Assembly: GCA_000337115.1 (NCBI GenBank)
Contig: AOIR01000053.1
Span: forward strand, 67,489-131,488
Length of the DNA: 64,000 nt
Source: Natrinema thermotolerans DSM 11552
GTDB lineage: Archaea > Halobacteriota > Halobacteria > Halobacteriales > Natrialbaceae
Direction: 5' to 3'
The first letter of the stretch is position 1. Every line of letters starts with the position of its first letter. Shown here in pieces: positions 7,729-56,093 of the stretch. A program made the translations under genes and the position numbers. The notes under the pieces are model-generated. The model did no database searches and was not told where the DNA came from. It was given only the letters and a program-made list of their open reading frames with translations.

Positions 7729-7827
7729 CTAATCGGCGCCGCAGTGGTTCGTCCACCCGCAGTGCTGACACCACTCCTCCGGTGTGTCTGTCAGTCGCCC
7801 ACAGAGCGGACAGTTCGTCTCAGTCAT
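7729..7827 (-). CDS. 32-residue zinc-ribbon micro-protein
   Basis: A very small ORF missed by length cut-offs. It has five cysteines at 6, 9, 20, 23 and 29. Two CxxC knuckles (CPLCG and CQHCG) are spaced as in a rubredoxin-like or CPxCG zinc ribbon, with Trp/His residues between them, so it should bind one zinc. Its ATG overlaps the last 8 bases of the upstream aldehyde dehydrogenase gene, so it is probably translationally coupled to it. Small CPxCG-type proteins are known in haloarchaea, often with regulatory phenotypes; this link to proline oxidation is inference. The composition is acidic and the overlap is clean, which argues against chance. Confidence 0.75.
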   Translation of the reverse strand: MTETNCPLCGRLTDTPEEWCQHCGWTNHCGAD

Positions 7828-9355
7828 CGTCGGTCGTAATGTCGGCCGACAGTCCCTGTGCCATCTCGATGTCTTTGGAGTTGTTCAGCGTCCAGGCGGT
7901 GCGCTCGGTGACGGCCTCGATCACTTCGCGACCGCTCGGGTAGCCGTTCCCGGACTTGTTGACGCCGCCAAAGGGCAGGTGAACCTCCGCGCCGATACAC
8001 GGCAGGTTCCCGTACGCGAGTCCGACCTCGGCGTTGTCGCGGTAGTAGTTGACCTCGCGGTAGTCCTCGGAGATGATCGCTCCCGCGAGCCCGTACTCGG
8101 TGTCGTTGTGGATCTCGACGCCGTCCTCGATGTCGCCCGAGTACGTCATGAGCGCGACGTGGGGGCCGAAGACCTCCTCTTGTGTACATCGGAGGTCGGC
8201 GTCCGGGTCGGCCTCGTAGACGAACGGGCCGATCCAGTGGCCGTCCTCGTGGCCGTCGGGCACTTCCGCGTCGGCCAGTTCGTCGCGGTCGACGAGGACG
8301 TTCACGTCTTCGCTTCGCGCGAGTTCGTTGTACTCGAGGACCTTCTCCTTGTGTTCGCCCTCGACGAGCGGCCCCATGAACGTGTCTTCGGCCAGCGGGT
8401 CGCCGACCGCGATGTTCTTGGCGATCTCGACGAAGCGCTCCTTGAACTCGTCGTAGACGTCCTCGTGGACGATCAGGCGCTCGGCGGAGACACAGCGCTG
8501 GCCGGTGGTCTTGAACGAACTCATGACCGCCGAGTGGACGGCCGTATCGAGGTCGGCCTCGTCGCTGATGACGACGGCGTTCTTGCCGCCCATCTCGCAG
8601 GCCGCGAGCTTGCCGGGCTGTTCGGCGACGGTTTGAGCGACCTCTTGACCGACCTCGGCCGAACCGGTAAAGAGGACGGTGTCGACGCGTGGGTCGTCGA
8701 CGATCGAGGCCCCGGCGTCGCCGAAGCCCTGTACCATGTTGAACACGCCGTCGGGGATACCGCTCTCCTCGAACATCTCGGCGATGATCTGGCCACACCA
8801 CGGGGTCTGCTCGGCGGGCTTCCAGACCACGGTGTTGCCCTCGACCAGCGAGACGGCCATGTGCCAGAACGGGATCGCGACGGGGAAGTTCCAGGGCGTG
8901 ATACAGCCGACGACGCCCCGGGGCTTGCGGCGCATGTACGCGTCCTTGCTCCCGATCTCGGAGGGGACGACGTCACCGTGTGGGTGGCGGGCGTTGCCCG
9001 CGGCCCACTCGACCATGTGTGCGGCTTCGACGACGTCGGCTTTCCCTTCGGAGATCTCCTTGCCACACTCCTTGGTGACGATCTCGCCGAGTTCGTCCGT
9101 CCGCTCGCGCAGTTCGTGGTAGATGTCCCAGAGGAACTCCGCGCGGTCGATGTGCGACAGGTCGCGCCACTCCTCCTGTGCCGCCTCCGCGGCCTCGAGG
9201 GCTCGATCGACGTCGGATTGCGTTCCGCGGTGGAAGGTGCGCAACGTCTCGCCAGTCGCCGGGTTCTCGCTTGCGAAGGTTTCGTCGCCTTCGCCGTCCG
9301 TCCATTCGCCGTCGATGTAGTGTCGGTCGGGTTGCTCTGTCGTCTGCTGGCTCAT
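7820..9355 (-). CDS. Aldehyde dehydrogenase, probably 1-pyrroline-5-carboxylate dehydrogenase
   Basis: A 511-residue NAD(P)-linked dehydrogenase with FTGSAEVGQ (about 229), Glu254 in CEMGGKN and the catalytic Cys288 in TTGQRCVS. The length and fold match monofunctional P5C or semialdehyde dehydrogenases. The proline dehydrogenase and proline symporter genes are divergently placed just beyond a regulator. I therefore infer the second step of proline breakdown, glutamate semialdehyde to glutamate. The ATG at 9355 follows a minus-strand TTATTCC box by about 30 bases; an in-frame upstream extension is basic and rejected. The gene runs directly into the micro zinc-ribbon gene. Confidence 0.88.
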   Translation of the reverse strand: MSQQTTEQPDRHYIDGEWTDGEGDETFASENPATGETLRTFHRGTQSDVDRALEAAEAAQEEWRDLSHIDRAEFLWDIYHELRERTDELGEIVTKECGKEISEGKADVVEAAHMVEWAAGNARHPHGDVVPSEIGSKDAYMRRKPRGVVGCITPWNFPVAIPFWHMAVSLVEGNTVVWKPAEQTPWCGQIIAEMFEESGIPDGVFNMVQGFGDAGASIVDDPRVDTVLFTGSAEVGQEVAQTVAEQPGKLAACEMGGKNAVVISDEADLDTAVHSAVMSSFKTTGQRCVSAERLIVHEDVYDEFKERFVEIAKNIAVGDPLAEDTFMGPLVEGEHKEKVLEYNELARSEDVNVLVDRDELADAEVPDGHEDGHWIGPFVYEADPDADLRCTQEEVFGPHVALMTYSGDIEDGVEIHNDTEYGLAGAIISEDYREVNYYRDNAEVGLAYGNLPCIGAEVHLPFGGVNKSGNGYPSGREVIEAVTERTAWTLNNSKDIEMAQGLSADITTDDD

Positions 9356-9569: not shown

Positions 9570-10298
9570 ATGAGCAGTACGAGTTCGACGACGACCACGA
9601 CAGGGGCAACCGACGGGACGCGACTCACGCTCGATATCTGGCATCCGGACTGCTGGGGCCTGCAGGCGACCGAGGCAGTCGACGCCGGCTTGCTCGTCCA
9701 CACCGTCCACCGAACCGTCGAGGAGACGGTCAAGGGTCACTTCACCGTCTACGCCGACACGACGGCACAACTCGACGAGTTCGTCGCGTTCGCGGCCGAG
9801 TCTCCGCTAACGCACTCGACGGTTGAACTCGGCCAGCGCCCCACGACGGCACCGAACCCGGGGAACGCGACGCGCGAACTGTTCGTCGAGTACGAGCCCG
9901 AACACAGTATCAGCGACACGCTCGTCTCGCATGGCTTCATCCACGACGCGTCGGTGCGCGTCGAGAGTGGCGTCGAACACTGGCCGGTCTTCGTCGCCGG
10001 CGGTCGCGACGAGATCCGGTGTCGACTCGAGGCCATCCGGGCCGAGACGGACGCGGAGATTTCGATCAGTCGGGTCGCCACGCCCGACGGCGGTCCGTCG
10101 GAGACCGCCGATCGGACGGATCTCCTTACGCCGCGCCAGCGTGAGGCGTTCGAACTCGCCTGCGAGCGGAACTACTACGCGTGGCCCCGCGAGATCAGCA
10201 CGCGCGAACTCGCGGACGAACTCGGCGTCTCGAAGACGACGCTGCTCGAGCATCTCCGGAAGGCCGAAGCGAAACTGCTCAACCCCGACGACGTCTGA
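9570..10298 (+). CDS. Bat-type HTH regulator of the proline module
   Basis: A 242-residue haloarchaeal regulator. Residues 15-175 form a sensor region of the bacterio-opsin-activator type with no known ligand motif. Residues about 185-240 are an HTH_10 domain beginning LTPRQREAFELACERNYY and containing ISTRELADELGVSKTTLLEH. This domain family is common and largely specific to haloarchaea. Its place between the divergent dehydrogenase and the proline dehydrogenase strongly suggests that it controls proline use. The N-terminus is Ser/Thr-rich and flexible. Confidence 0.92.
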   Translation: MSSTSSTTTTTGATDGTRLTLDIWHPDCWGLQATEAVDAGLLVHTVHRTVEETVKGHFTVYADTTAQLDEFVAFAAESPLTHSTVELGQRPTTAPNPGNATRELFVEYEPEHSISDTLVSHGFIHDASVRVESGVEHWPVFVAGGRDEIRCRLEAIRAETDAEISISRVATPDGGPSETADRTDLLTPRQREAFELACERNYYAWPREISTRELADELGVSKTTLLEHLRKAEAKLLNPDDV

Positions 10299-10350
10299 TC
10301 ACCGTGTATTATTTCGCGTTTTGACGGACGAATCTTTTGGTCGGGTATCC

Positions 10351-10357
10351 ATTTAGG
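10351..10357 (+). promoter_or_regulatory. TATA-like box of proline dehydrogenase
   Basis: ATTTAGG lies about 28 bases before the ATG at 10382. It supports that start over an in-frame codon at 10337. Confidence 0.45.
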
Positions 10358-10381
10358 TGCCTGTCGTCCCAGCAGTCCGGT

Positions 10382-11221
10382 ATGATACCACCGATCGCGA
10401 GCCGGTTCGTCGCCGGAACGACTGCGTCAGGCGCTCTGGACCACGTTTCGGAGTGTAACGAAGCGGGGATGGGCGGCATCCTGAACCTCCTCGGCGAACA
10501 CTACGACGATCCCGAACCCGCCGCGGAGGACGCCGACGCGTACTGTCACCTCGTCTCCGAACTGGCCAGCCGTGGCCTGAACGGCAGCGTCTCGGTCAAA
10601 CCGTCCCAGATCGGTATCGACGTCGGACCGGACGTCTTCAGGGAAAACTTCGAACGAATCGTCGAGACGGCGGCGGCCGAGGACGTGTTCGTCTGGTGTG
10701 ACATGGAAGACCACACGACGACCGACACGACGCTCGACGCCGTCGAAGCGACGGCCCGGGACCATCCCCACGGCGTCGGCGTCGCGATTCAGGCGAACCT
10801 CACGCGGACGCGCGATGACCTCCGTCGCCTCGCTGACGTTCCCGCCGCCGTCCGGCTGGTGAAAGGCGCCTACGACGAACCGTCGTCGGTCGCCCTCGAC
10901 TCGAAATCGGCCGTCGACGACGCCTACGAGGACCACCTCGAGTTCCTGTTTCGCGAATTCGACCAGGGTGTCGCGGTCGGGAGCCACGACCCAGCAATGC
11001 TTCAGGTCGCGGTCGACCTCCACAAGGAGTACGGGACGCCGTTCGAGATCCAGATGCTAATGGGGGTCCGCGAGGACGCCCAGCGCGAACTCGCCGCGAA
11101 GGGGTACGAGGTCAATCAGTACGTCCCCTACGGCGACAAGTGGATGCAGTACTTCTACCGACGGATCCGCGAGCGCAAGGAGAACGCACTGTTTGCGCTC
11201 CGCGCCGTTGTCGGCGTCTGA
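10382..11221 (+). CDS. Proline dehydrogenase (FAD)
   Basis: A 279-residue monofunctional proline dehydrogenase, first enzyme of proline oxidation, passing electrons to the quinone pool and giving P5C. It has the TIM-barrel signature. The opening is FVAGTTASGALDHV, the strand GSVSVKPSQIG contributes a conserved Lys, RLVKGAYDEP follows, and the C-terminal substrate-binding YVPYGDKWMQYFYRRIRER carries the conserved Arg pair. The length matches archaeal/Gram-positive forms. It is followed by a small membrane protein and the symporter on the same strand, each with its own promoter. Confidence 0.93.
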   Translation: MIPPIASRFVAGTTASGALDHVSECNEAGMGGILNLLGEHYDDPEPAAEDADAYCHLVSELASRGLNGSVSVKPSQIGIDVGPDVFRENFERIVETAAAEDVFVWCDMEDHTTTDTTLDAVEATARDHPHGVGVAIQANLTRTRDDLRRLADVPAAVRLVKGAYDEPSSVALDSKSAVDDAYEDHLEFLFREFDQGVAVGSHDPAMLQVAVDLHKEYGTPFEIQMLMGVREDAQRELAAKGYEVNQYVPYGDKWMQYFYRRIRERKENALFALRAVVGV

Positions 11222-11324
11222 CCGGACTGCGGGGTTCGCGACGGCGTCGTCTACCAGCTCGCTCGAGCGTCGGCTCTCTGATTCTTCCGCGCTGATACGT
11301 CCGATATAAAGGGTGCAAATTCGG

Positions 11325-11333
11325 TATATTTAT
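11325..11333 (+). promoter_or_regulatory. TATA box of the symporter transcript
   Basis: TATATTTAT is centred about 30 bases before the ATG at 11359. This places the transcription start at the small membrane protein, not at putP itself. Confidence 0.65.
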
Positions 11334-11358
11334 TTGTGGGTAGTAAGCACACGCCACT

Positions 11359-11505
11359 ATGCCAGAGAGTGGATCAGTCGAATTGATCTGGTTATTCGGA
11401 CCGTTCGTCCTGTACCTAGCGATGCTCGTCGTCTACTACGTCTGGGAAGGGAAGCGAGAGAAACGACTCCGCGAGCGCTACGAGGAGGCGAAACATGGCC
11501 AGTGA
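11359..11505 (+). CDS. 48-residue single-span membrane protein upstream of putP
   Basis: A short ORF with one hydrophobic helix (about 8-29, LIWLFGPFVLYLAMLVVYY) followed by a highly charged tail of Arg/Lys/Glu. It is the first gene of the symporter transcript (TATA at 11325, leaderless) and its last 11 bases overlap the putP start, so translation is coupled. Small membrane partners next to SSS-family transporters are known (DUF4212, DUF3311, DUF997 types), but this one is shorter and I do not recognise its family. It probably assembles with or stabilises the symporter. N-inside or N-outside topology cannot be settled by eye. Confidence 0.8.
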   Translation: MPESGSVELIWLFGPFVLYLAMLVVYYVWEGKREKRLRERYEEAKHGQ

Positions 11506-13183: not shown

Positions 13184-13696
13184 ATGAGCGACGCGCGCCG
13201 ACGCTCGGTCGAGCCCGCGACGCTCACGGGCGAGTCGCATGACCGAGCCGCCCTTACCGTCATCGAACCGACGGTGACGCGCGAGGACGTCGACTCGAGC
13301 GGTCGCGTCGGTGCCGTCGCGTACCCGTATCGGATCTACGACGCCGTCGCGACGATCGAACGACCACTGCTTTCGGACCGCGACATCGAGTACGTCGTCA
13401 GCGTCGACCGCGCTCGCCGGCTCGCCGTCAGGGCCGACGTGTTTCCCGACACCGTCACGGAAACCGTCGACGACGTCCTTCTCCTCCCGTCGGAACTCTC
13501 CGACGCGCAGGTCCGGGACAAGGCCGAAGACGCGGTGTTCACGTGGACGCTCCGGAAAGTCGCCGTCGGCTCCGCGCCGGACCTGACCTTCGAACGGTCG
13601 GTCGACGCCCACAAACTGTTCTGGATCGCGTCCCGCCCCGACGGGGACGTCATCGTCGATAGCGTCCGCGGCACGGAGATGCCACTGACGGAGTGA
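13184..13696 (+). CDS. Unknown protein, last gene of the putP operon
   Basis: A 170-residue soluble protein whose ATG directly follows the putP stop codon, so it is co-translated. It shows no signal or membrane segment. It contains alternating beta/alpha stretches such as YPYRIYDAVATIERPLLS and FTWTLRKVAVGSAPDLTFE. No family recognised. Position suggests a role in symporter regulation or proline metabolism, but nothing in the sequence proves it. Confidence 0.8.
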   Translation: MSDARRRSVEPATLTGESHDRAALTVIEPTVTREDVDSSGRVGAVAYPYRIYDAVATIERPLLSDRDIEYVVSVDRARRLAVRADVFPDTVTETVDDVLLLPSELSDAQVRDKAEDAVFTWTLRKVAVGSAPDLTFERSVDAHKLFWIASRPDGDVIVDSVRGTEMPLTE

Positions 13697-54408: not shown

Positions 54409-55845
54409 TCAGTCGCCGCCCTCGCCGGCGTCCGCTCGCGGGGTGTCCCCGCTCGCGTCACCCGAGGCGTGGTGTGCCTCGCTCTCTTCGACGCGCTCGT
54501 GGCGGTCGAGGGAGGTCATCGTCCGGTAAGTCTCGGCCCGGTCGGTCTTCGCGAGCCGGTAGCGGTAGTAGCCGTAGGCGACGACGAACCAGCCCACGAG
54601 GACGACGCCGACGATCGGCCGCTGGAGCAGCGTGACGATCCAGAACGCGCCGGTCGCGACGGCCCCGCCGAGGACCGCGAGGAGGAGCCCCCGGTATCGC
54701 CGGAGTCGGAACGGGGCGTTGGCGTAGTGGGCGGGGAACTCCCGGGGCAGGTTCCAGAGCCCGATCGCACAGAAGAAGTACGCGGTGAGGCTGGCCAGGC
54801 CGATGAACACCGAGAGCCCCACGATCTCGTCCGCGATCGGCACGAGTACGAACGGCGGGAGGCCAAGCAGCGCAACGGCGTAGTGGGGCGTCTCGAACCG
54901 CGGGTGGATCCGGGCGAGCGACGCCGGGAGGATGCCGTCGCGGCTCGCGCGCATGAGCGTCCGGGAGAATACCAAAAGCGTCGTGTTCACGGTCGTGACG
55001 ACCGCGAAGACGGCACCGGCAGCGACGACGTACTCGCCCCACCACGGGAGAAATTGCGCGGCAGCCATCGCGAGATCGGCTTCGGCCCCCAGTTCGGTGT
55101 AGGGAACGACGCCGACGAGGACGGCGATCAGCGCCACGTAAAACAGGGCGACGATCCCGATGCCCAACCCCAGCACCAGCGGGATCGTCCGGCCGGGGTT
55201 CTCGATCTCTTCGCCCAGTTCGACCAGCAGTCCGAAGCCAAGGAACGGATAGAACAGGGCGACCACTGCGAGCCCGAACGCGCCGTAGTCCGGGAAAAAC
55301 GGCGCGTAGTTGGCGGCGTCGACCGCGGTCGCACCGGGGACGATAAAGGTCAGGAGCGCGATCACGAGCCCGGCGAAGAAGACGAGTTGGACCTGTGCGA
55401 CGACCCTGAGCCCGATCAGGTTGACCAGCAGGACGAACGCCAGCAGGACGTAAATCAGCGGTGTCGACGGGACGTCGACGAATATCCGGGTGTACTCCGC
55501 GAAGCCCGTCGCCGTGATGAGCAAGGACGCCCACGCGACCAGCGGGATGGTAAACGGGACCAGAAAGCCCCAGTACGGCGCAGTCAGACGAGAGATATAG
55601 ACGTACAGCCCACCGGCGACGGGCATCGCCGACCCGAGCAGGGCGTTGTAGAGGACGACGAACGACGCCGGGATCGCCGCCAGGAGGATCGCTACCACGA
55701 GCGACGGGCCCGCGGTCCCCGCCAGCGGCCCCGGCAGGACGAATATCGGCACCGAGATCGCGTTCCCGACCAACAACGCGAGGACGCCGACGATACCGAT
55801 GCTCGAGGACAGCGTCGCCGCGTCGGCGTCGCCGGAGGCACTCAT
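54409..55845 (-). CDS. APC-family amino acid/polyamine permease
   Basis: A 478-residue transporter with about 12 helices. The first has the unwound GNAISVPIFVLPGPLAG stretch, and later parts include YPFLGFGLLVELGEEIENPGRTIP, the conserved loop after helix 6. A hydrophilic acidic tail (about 450-478) follows. It probably imports an amino acid or amine by proton or sodium symport. Its first four bases overlap the small membrane protein upstream, so they are co-expressed. The substrate is unknown. Confidence 0.92.
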   Translation of the reverse strand: MSASGDADAATLSSSIGIVGVLALLVGNAISVPIFVLPGPLAGTAGPSLVVAILLAAIPASFVVLYNALLGSAMPVAGGLYVYISRLTAPYWGFLVPFTIPLVAWASLLITATGFAEYTRIFVDVPSTPLIYVLLAFVLLVNLIGLRVVAQVQLVFFAGLVIALLTFIVPGATAVDAANYAPFFPDYGAFGLAVVALFYPFLGFGLLVELGEEIENPGRTIPLVLGLGIGIVALFYVALIAVLVGVVPYTELGAEADLAMAAAQFLPWWGEYVVAAGAVFAVVTTVNTTLLVFSRTLMRASRDGILPASLARIHPRFETPHYAVALLGLPPFVLVPIADEIVGLSVFIGLASLTAYFFCAIGLWNLPREFPAHYANAPFRLRRYRGLLLAVLGGAVATGAFWIVTLLQRPIVGVVLVGWFVVAYGYYRYRLAKTDRAETYRTMTSLDRHERVEESEAHHASGDASGDTPRADAGEGGD

Positions 55846-56093
55846 TCTGCCGTCGTTCGATCGGCCCGCCGGCGTCGGACGGCGGCGTCGCGGACCCGTC
55901 GACCGAGGGCGAACCCGACGACGCCACCGAGAAACGGTGTCACAGCGAGCAGCGCCGGGGCCGTAACCAGCGGGAGGACGATTCCGAGCCCGAGGCCGAC
56001 CACCAGCCCGCCCTCGGGATACTGCGCCGCGGCGACCTCGCGCTCGACGTCGTCCATCTCCGCCGGCTCGTCGCGGTACTCTCCGATTGCCAT
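55842..56093 (-). CDS. 83-residue membrane protein coupled to the permease
   Basis: A small protein with an acidic N-terminus (1-24) and one long or two short hydrophobic segments (about 28-64), ending in an Arg-rich tail. No family recognised. A TATTTTAC box (about 56119-56127) is about 28 bases before the ATG at 56093, so it leads the transcript; an ATG at 56108 is the alternative. Its stop overlaps the permease start by four bases. It may be an accessory subunit, like the small protein before putP. Confidence 0.75.
   Translation of the reverse strand: MAIGEYRDEPAEMDDVEREVAAAQYPEGGLVVGLGLGIVLPLVTAPALLAVTPFLGGVVGFALGRRVRDAAVRRRRADRTTAE

Follow-up and report, generated by a model that had tools for sequence, protein, structure and literature searches.

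Small membrane proteins accompany several secondary carriers, with YjcH (DUF485) and ActP, YhdT (DUF997) and PanF, and MetS and MetP as examples, the last of these pairs being built around a carrier that is not a sodium:solute symporter (SSS) protein. Among SSS carriers, those of the VC_2705 type go with the DUF4212 (TIGR03647) small subunit. In Sinorhizobium, a DUF3311 gene is the neighbour of mctP, which encodes a pyruvate symporter, and the expression of the two genes shifts together (PMC9100948). The single helix of MAP17 bound to human SGLT2 contacts TM13 and moves with the bundle domain, with co-expression of the two proteins greatly enhancing activity (PMC10803289). E. coli PutP is a model symporter that has been studied as one protein, and the words “subunit” and “accessory” are absent from a review (PMC7918813). 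Here we describe a haloarchaeal locus where a PutP-clade carrier is encoded between a single-span membrane protein of 48 residues and a soluble protein of 170 residues, and we consider it probable that these form a three-component Na+/solute symporter of the PutP clade, with the small protein as its dedicated accessory subunit.

Organization of the locus

The window, i.e., the whole stretch of 64,000 nucleotides from Natrinema thermotolerans DSM 11552 that was analysed, contains the following features around the small gene, which we call a type A partner, and at a second, separate unit:

7820–9343, minus strand: aldehyde dehydrogenase family protein (Aldedh E 1.6e-143)
9570–10298, plus strand: HTH_10 regulator
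10337–11221, plus strand: proline dehydrogenase, the upstream neighbour (Pro_dh E 4.3e-30)
11325–11334, plus strand: TATA-like element of the small gene, TATATTTATT, centred about 30 nt before the ATG
11359–11505, plus strand: small gene (type A partner), ATG start, single-span membrane protein of 48 aa
11495–13183, plus strand: PutP-clade sodium:solute symporter of 562 aa (SSF E 1.2e-64; TIGR02121 367.1 bits)
13184–13696, plus strand: soluble protein of 170 aa, the third component, directly after the putP stop codon
55842–56093, minus strand: glycine-rich membrane ORF of 83 aa with a 4-nt overlap with an APC permease (start 55845), separate from the put system

The ORF at 11359–11505 encodes MPESGSVELIWLFGPFVLYLAMLVVYYVWEGKREKRLRERYEEAKHGQ, in which a few residues are followed by one hydrophobic segment (Kyte-Doolittle 19-residue maximum 2.21, starting at residue 7) and a strongly charged tail, GKREKRLRERYEE; the core motif of the type A small protein is P-x10-Y-Y-V-W-E-G-[KR]-R-E. 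The small ORF ends at 11505 and the PutP-like ORF begins at 11495, in agreement with the 11-nt overlap reported in a preliminary description of this DNA, and the frame of the small gene relative to putP is +1 in 48 of 51 genomes. Assignment of the 48-aa protein to a known family was rejected, as matches in Pfam and NCBIfam were sub-threshold only (YidC model 0.011, FixQ 0.31); neither DUF4212/TIGR03647 nor DUF3311 (PF11755) matched it at E<=1, and a PDB search with profile A1 of the type A small protein matched no chain at E<=10. In Natrinema versiforme, the protein is annotated as hypothetical (WP_175416536.1).

With proline dehydrogenase, an HTH_10 regulator and an aldehyde dehydrogenase in front, the locus lies in a proline-catabolism neighbourhood, and the product of 7820–9343 is probably the P5C dehydrogenase of proline catabolism, a name that we take from its neighbours. 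Proline dehydrogenase is found within 6 kb at only 6 of 25 named small-gene loci, so the small gene follows PutP and not the catabolic enzymes.

The preliminary description had placed the small ORF at the head of the putP transcript, behind what it took to be the only clear TATA box, at 11325. The TATA-like sequence TATATTTATT is present there, but it is not the sole one, as TATAAA also occurs at 11305–11310, where it is not conserved. Across 24 named loci, an AT-rich peak lies at -30 to -27 of the small-gene start codon (mean AT 0.85 over the four positions); the 60 nt before PutP show no comparable peak at that distance, and their best four-position stretch reaches 0.72, at -60. Leaderless transcripts are common in haloarchaea, and the position of the peak fits one that begins at the small gene, at or just before its ATG. 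The conserved promoter placement at these 24 loci supports the view that the small ORF is the first gene of the putP transcript.

Selection on the small gene

The small gene is under purifying selection, with a median dN/dS of 0.26 over 113 usable pairs of named loci (123 computed). The protein of Natrinema mahii is identical to that of the window, and the two ORFs differ with dN 0 and dS 0.36. All 25 sequences share the invariant residues YYVWEG[KR]RE, with different codons for the Val, Glu, Gly and Arg of this motif, and such fixed residues with varying codons argue that the protein rather than an RNA is conserved. An RNA element was likewise rejected on the pattern of change, which is that of a coding gene (1.67, 1.62 and 2.57 different bases per column at codon positions 1, 2 and 3).

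Pairing of the small gene with PutP

Absence of the ORF upstream of orthologous symporters had been named at the outset as the observation that would speak against a link with PutP, and the opposite was found in 391 genomes of the haloarchaeal class searched for the small gene (E<=0.001) and for PutP (E<=1e-90): the ORF is adjacent in 51 of the 52 PutP-positive genomes. Small-gene matches occur in 55 of the 391 and both genes in 51, where without exception they are adjacent and on the same strand, with the small gene 124–199 nt upstream. The lone PutP-positive genome without the small gene (G220) carries a 5'-truncated putP pseudogene with stops. Conversely, small-gene matches without a PutP match stem from a locus with putP deleted and the small gene cut (G052), a frameshifted remnant (G246), an open small gene with putP disrupted by unrelated sequence (G346) and a chance match inside a 620-aa frame (G228); the five non-matching genomes of the 391 thus represent decay, disruption or chance. 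At the G346 locus (L110 4553–5648), about 455 nt of unrelated sequence stand in place of putP residues 84–474, through insertion, deletion or misassembly. A further side observation concerns N. mahii (G004; L116 and L047), one of the 51 pairs, where putP is frameshifted into two pieces next to an intact small gene, reflecting either an error in sequencing or a loss that happened very recently.

The same picture emerges from 61 relatives, 22 of which have a small-gene match: all 20 PutP-positive genomes (E<=1e-100) are among these, and the other two are a chance match (G048) and a deletion scar (G052). In the named collection, 24 of 25 small-gene loci adjoin PutP (66–99% identity) and the 170-aa protein, and the 25th is a remnant in Halarchaeum rubridurum, the same sequence match as G246. 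Species with a type A locus include members of Natrinema, Natronococcus, Halorussus, Halolamina, Halocatena and Halobium as well as Halobacterium salinarum (L068). A haloarchaeal control of 33 annotated genes showed a comparable ORF before 2, one of which is the annotated small gene of another symporter while the other resembles the tail of an upstream permease.

Small partners at other loci

The preliminary description had also suggested that small coupled membrane partners recur in this organism, and the other SSS genes of the genome as well as an APC permease unit bear this out. A PutP search of the genome finds four SSS genes, and the three besides that of the window are preceded by small membrane-protein ORFs, i.e., a DUF3311 protein (L025, 45.5 bits), a DUF4212/TIGR03647 protein (L026, 74.9 bits) and one unnamed two-segment ORF. 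The comparable architecture noted before the APC permease at 55842–56093 is real, with the correction that it is on the minus strand, where small ORF and permease form a unit at window positions 54409–56093. Conservation of this unit was seen at every one of the 12 loci found, which are only those findable with the antisense-frame query of the 55842 ORF; excluding the own copy, identity is 67–90% for the small protein and 83–98% for the permease. As a separate case, plasmid pNVE414 of N. versiforme (L183 12470–12601) encodes a 43-aa single-span protein of other sequence before another SSS gene, with a 1-nt overlap.

Small ORFs precede more distant PutP homologues as well. A second haloarchaeal PutP paralog, 35–37% identical to that of the window, has its own divergent 53-aa single-span ORF that overlaps its start (type B; consensus MLTW.ELL.F.G.N..VWLGIA.LYV.YF.ESD) and shows a dN/dS of about 0.1. 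It is intact at four loci (Haladaptatus, Natribaculum longum, Haloterrigena turkmenica and genome G102), and at a fifth, in Natribaculum luteum, the ORF has lost its first residues to an IS66 insertion. The type B ORF is missing from the gene tables for the Haladaptatus and Haloterrigena plasmids, which give an incomplete listing, and it may be present in the original records. Each of the 8 PutP homologues found in family f21, which belongs to a different part of the phylum, has a type C ORF (consensus ..[VI]PT.....VM..YGFWD.ITG.EY..) immediately upstream, and one locus of G102 has a small ORF of a fourth type, D. Altogether, 36 of 44 non-orthologous PutP matches were examined and comprise 8 of type C, 1 of type B, 1 of type D and 26 without such an ORF. 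Six bacterial plasmid PutP loci, chosen from 56 records, had no small gene by the test used for the archaeal loci; a 69-aa ORF of weak hydrophobicity (1.31) that lies 159 nt upstream of PutP in an E. coli record was not counted.

The partner types differ in how closely they resemble each other. Single ancestry of all types was probed by HMM with locally shuffled controls, where 0 of 300 shuffles scored as high for L123 and 1 of 300 for L124, with the other seven not significant, and by hhalign. In the latter, profiles A and C align without gaps over P-x10-Y-x2-W-[ED] (P 0.00045, probability 33%), which is suggestive of a relationship, and no convincing alignment was obtained for profile A against B (probability 3%). 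A tree of 65 SSS proteins, built by a quick search and with long branches, leaves the D row without a placement. It groups the A, B and C carriers together on an SH-aLRT of 85 only, and it puts carriers that lack a small gene with those of bacteria (97, starred). Given the long branches and the short search, a single origin is likely but not proven.

A soluble third component

The 170-aa protein has no match above cut-off in Pfam or NCBIfam. It was found in 35 of 194 genomes, always at the PutP locus or its remnant, with the matches at G025, G052 and G220 being remnants. At G025 (L189 4450–6769), an inserted ORF interrupts putP and the 170-aa gene contains stops, and this locus decays as a unit. 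The gene is placed differently at each type of locus: downstream of putP on the same strand for type A, downstream and convergent for type B (5 of 5 loci), and upstream and divergent for type C (6 of 8 loci, the other two being without the protein). It was not detected at the type D locus of G102, where the small ORF is present, nor at the 26 partner-less archaeal and 6 bacterial PutP loci, most of them covered with about 1.5–2 kb of flank, beyond which a farther copy could escape. At 2 of 25 named loci, in Halocatena pleomorpha (L060, 732 aa) and archaeon YIM A00010 (L069), a homologue of the 170-aa protein is fused in frame to PutP; an apparent fusion at L065 follows a frameshift and was not counted. 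Since it accompanies this carrier in three gene layouts and is occasionally fused to it, the 170-aa protein is very likely a working partner of the PutP-clade carrier.

A structural model of the 170-aa protein (pLDDT 89.9, pTM 0.81) found no PDB match at E<=0.001 with Foldseek, and its best hit with VIA-align 2, an archaeal ribosome chain (Z 5.4 over 63 residues), is below the level that this tool treats as meaningful. The modelled fold is thus one without a clear PDB match, from which its newness does not follow. The model of the natural fusion of H. pleomorpha (pTM 0.46) is uninformative on docking.

The carrier and its substrate

The PutP of the window falls in the SSF superfamily and scores below the cut-off of the PutP equivalog model TIGR02121 (367.1 vs 515.5 bits). 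Positions R40, S57, D187, S340 and W405 of E. coli PutP are kept in all groups, with D187 and S340 present in 18 of 18 type A rows. At the D55 position, all 18 A rows have Glu and all 5 B rows Leu, and Asp is found in the C, D, partner-less and bacterial rows; at the Y248 position, Ile, Val or Trp occurs in A and Gly in B, and Tyr in all other groups. A review describes both residues as essential to E. coli PutP and mentions the speculation that they make up an inner gate (PMC7918813). With D55 and Y248 replaced and a score below the PutP cut-off, proline as the substrate is supported by the neighbouring genes only, and these make it the most likely one for the carrier of the window. The genes next to the type B and C carriers are not those of proline metabolism. 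At two type B loci (L155 and L152), the carrier and the 170-aa homologue adjoin a gene for an FAD-dependent oxidoreductase, a neighbour that gives a hint of transport of something other than free L-proline.

Discussion

A small membrane protein, a PutP-clade symporter and a small soluble protein are encoded together in two haloarchaeal paralog groups and in the majority of members of a further archaeal family, with three gene arrangements, and because they travel together, the transporter is probably three-part rather than a single protein. On balance, we lean towards an archaeal symporter made of a PutP-clade carrier, a fast-diverging upstream single-span subunit and a soluble 170-aa domain that is either separate or fused.

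A dedicated assembly factor or regulator would fit the genetics nearly as well as a stable subunit. That the small gene comes first and overlaps the putP start would suit a protein that assists PutP assembly or membrane insertion during biogenesis and is then no part of the finished carrier, and the co-occurrence data fit such a dedicated chaperone equally well. We nevertheless regard this as unlikely, as one-to-one pairing and divergence with each PutP subgroup are more usual for a subunit, even if a dedicated chaperone could still behave in this way. The soluble nature of the third protein and its conservation with the small one, together with the changes at the D55 and Y248 positions of the A and B carriers, by which control may differ, could instead point to a regulatory membrane peptide, perhaps acting with the 170-aa protein to inhibit or tune PutP, that is not needed for transport. 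A regulator usually disappears more readily than its carrier, however, and the 391 genomes hold no intact PutP ortholog without the gene, which leaves such a peptide improbable.

The overlap of 11 nt and the +1 frame kept in 48 of 51 genomes would also be compatible with a leader ORF that matters only through its translation, by which the start codon of putP would be opened, and not through its product, but the gene persists where a gap parts it from putP (distances up to 199 nt) and single-span ORFs precede other archaeal PutPs, too. With purifying selection acting on the protein and YYVWEG[KR]RE fixed amid synonymous change, we rejected this reading, which has very little probability left. 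What counts against a subunit is that the small gene is missing at 26 archaeal and 6 bacterial PutP loci. E. coli PutP, for its part, works without such a partner.

If the small protein is an accessory subunit, as we favour, its gene and putP would be co-transcribed from the leaderless promoter at the small gene, and their translation is probably coupled. By the positive-inside rule, the helix would leave the short N-terminus outside and the charged C-terminal tail GKREKRLRERYEE inside the cell. We infer that the helix packs on the rim of PutP and stabilises the carrier or aids its folding and cycling, much as the single helix of MAP17 does for SGLT2, while the cytoplasmic tail could meet PutP loops or the 170-aa domain, the last member of the unit, which would also lie in the cytoplasm.

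SSS carriers with small partners are already known, and the three-part PutP-clade unit appears new within the open-licence literature searched, where we found neither this unit nor any report on the small gene. Such genes go unnamed, like type A (hypothetical), or unlisted, like type B in the incomplete gene tables mentioned above. Work on archaeal PutP-type carriers, whether assays or structures, may miss part of the system if these partners are left out. H. salinarum offers a simple genetic system for the role of single-span subunits in SSS carriers.

Among the described partners, the DUF4212/TIGR03647 and DUF3311 proteins resemble the 48-aa protein in being small membrane proteins encoded directly before (DUF4212/TIGR03647) or before (DUF3311) an SSS gene. 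Unlike the single-span protein described here, both have two hydrophobic segments, in a domain of about 80 residues for DUF4212/TIGR03647 and with another sequence and MctP-type carriers for DUF3311. YjcH/DUF485, YhdT/DUF997 and MetS are likewise paired with secondary carriers and belong to other sequence families, with no match by hmmscan. The closest likeness is to MAP17 (PDZK1IP1), the auxiliary subunit of human SGLT2 (SLC5, the SSS family), which also partners an SSS-fold carrier with one transmembrane helix. MAP17 is eukaryotic and larger than the archaeal 48-aa protein, and the likeness is functional: profile A1 revealed no sequence relation among the PDB chains searched, which presumably include those of MAP17. 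With a PutP relative that has a soluble partner and an apparently indispensable small helix, the MAP17 principle would reach proline-type carriers of prokaryotes.
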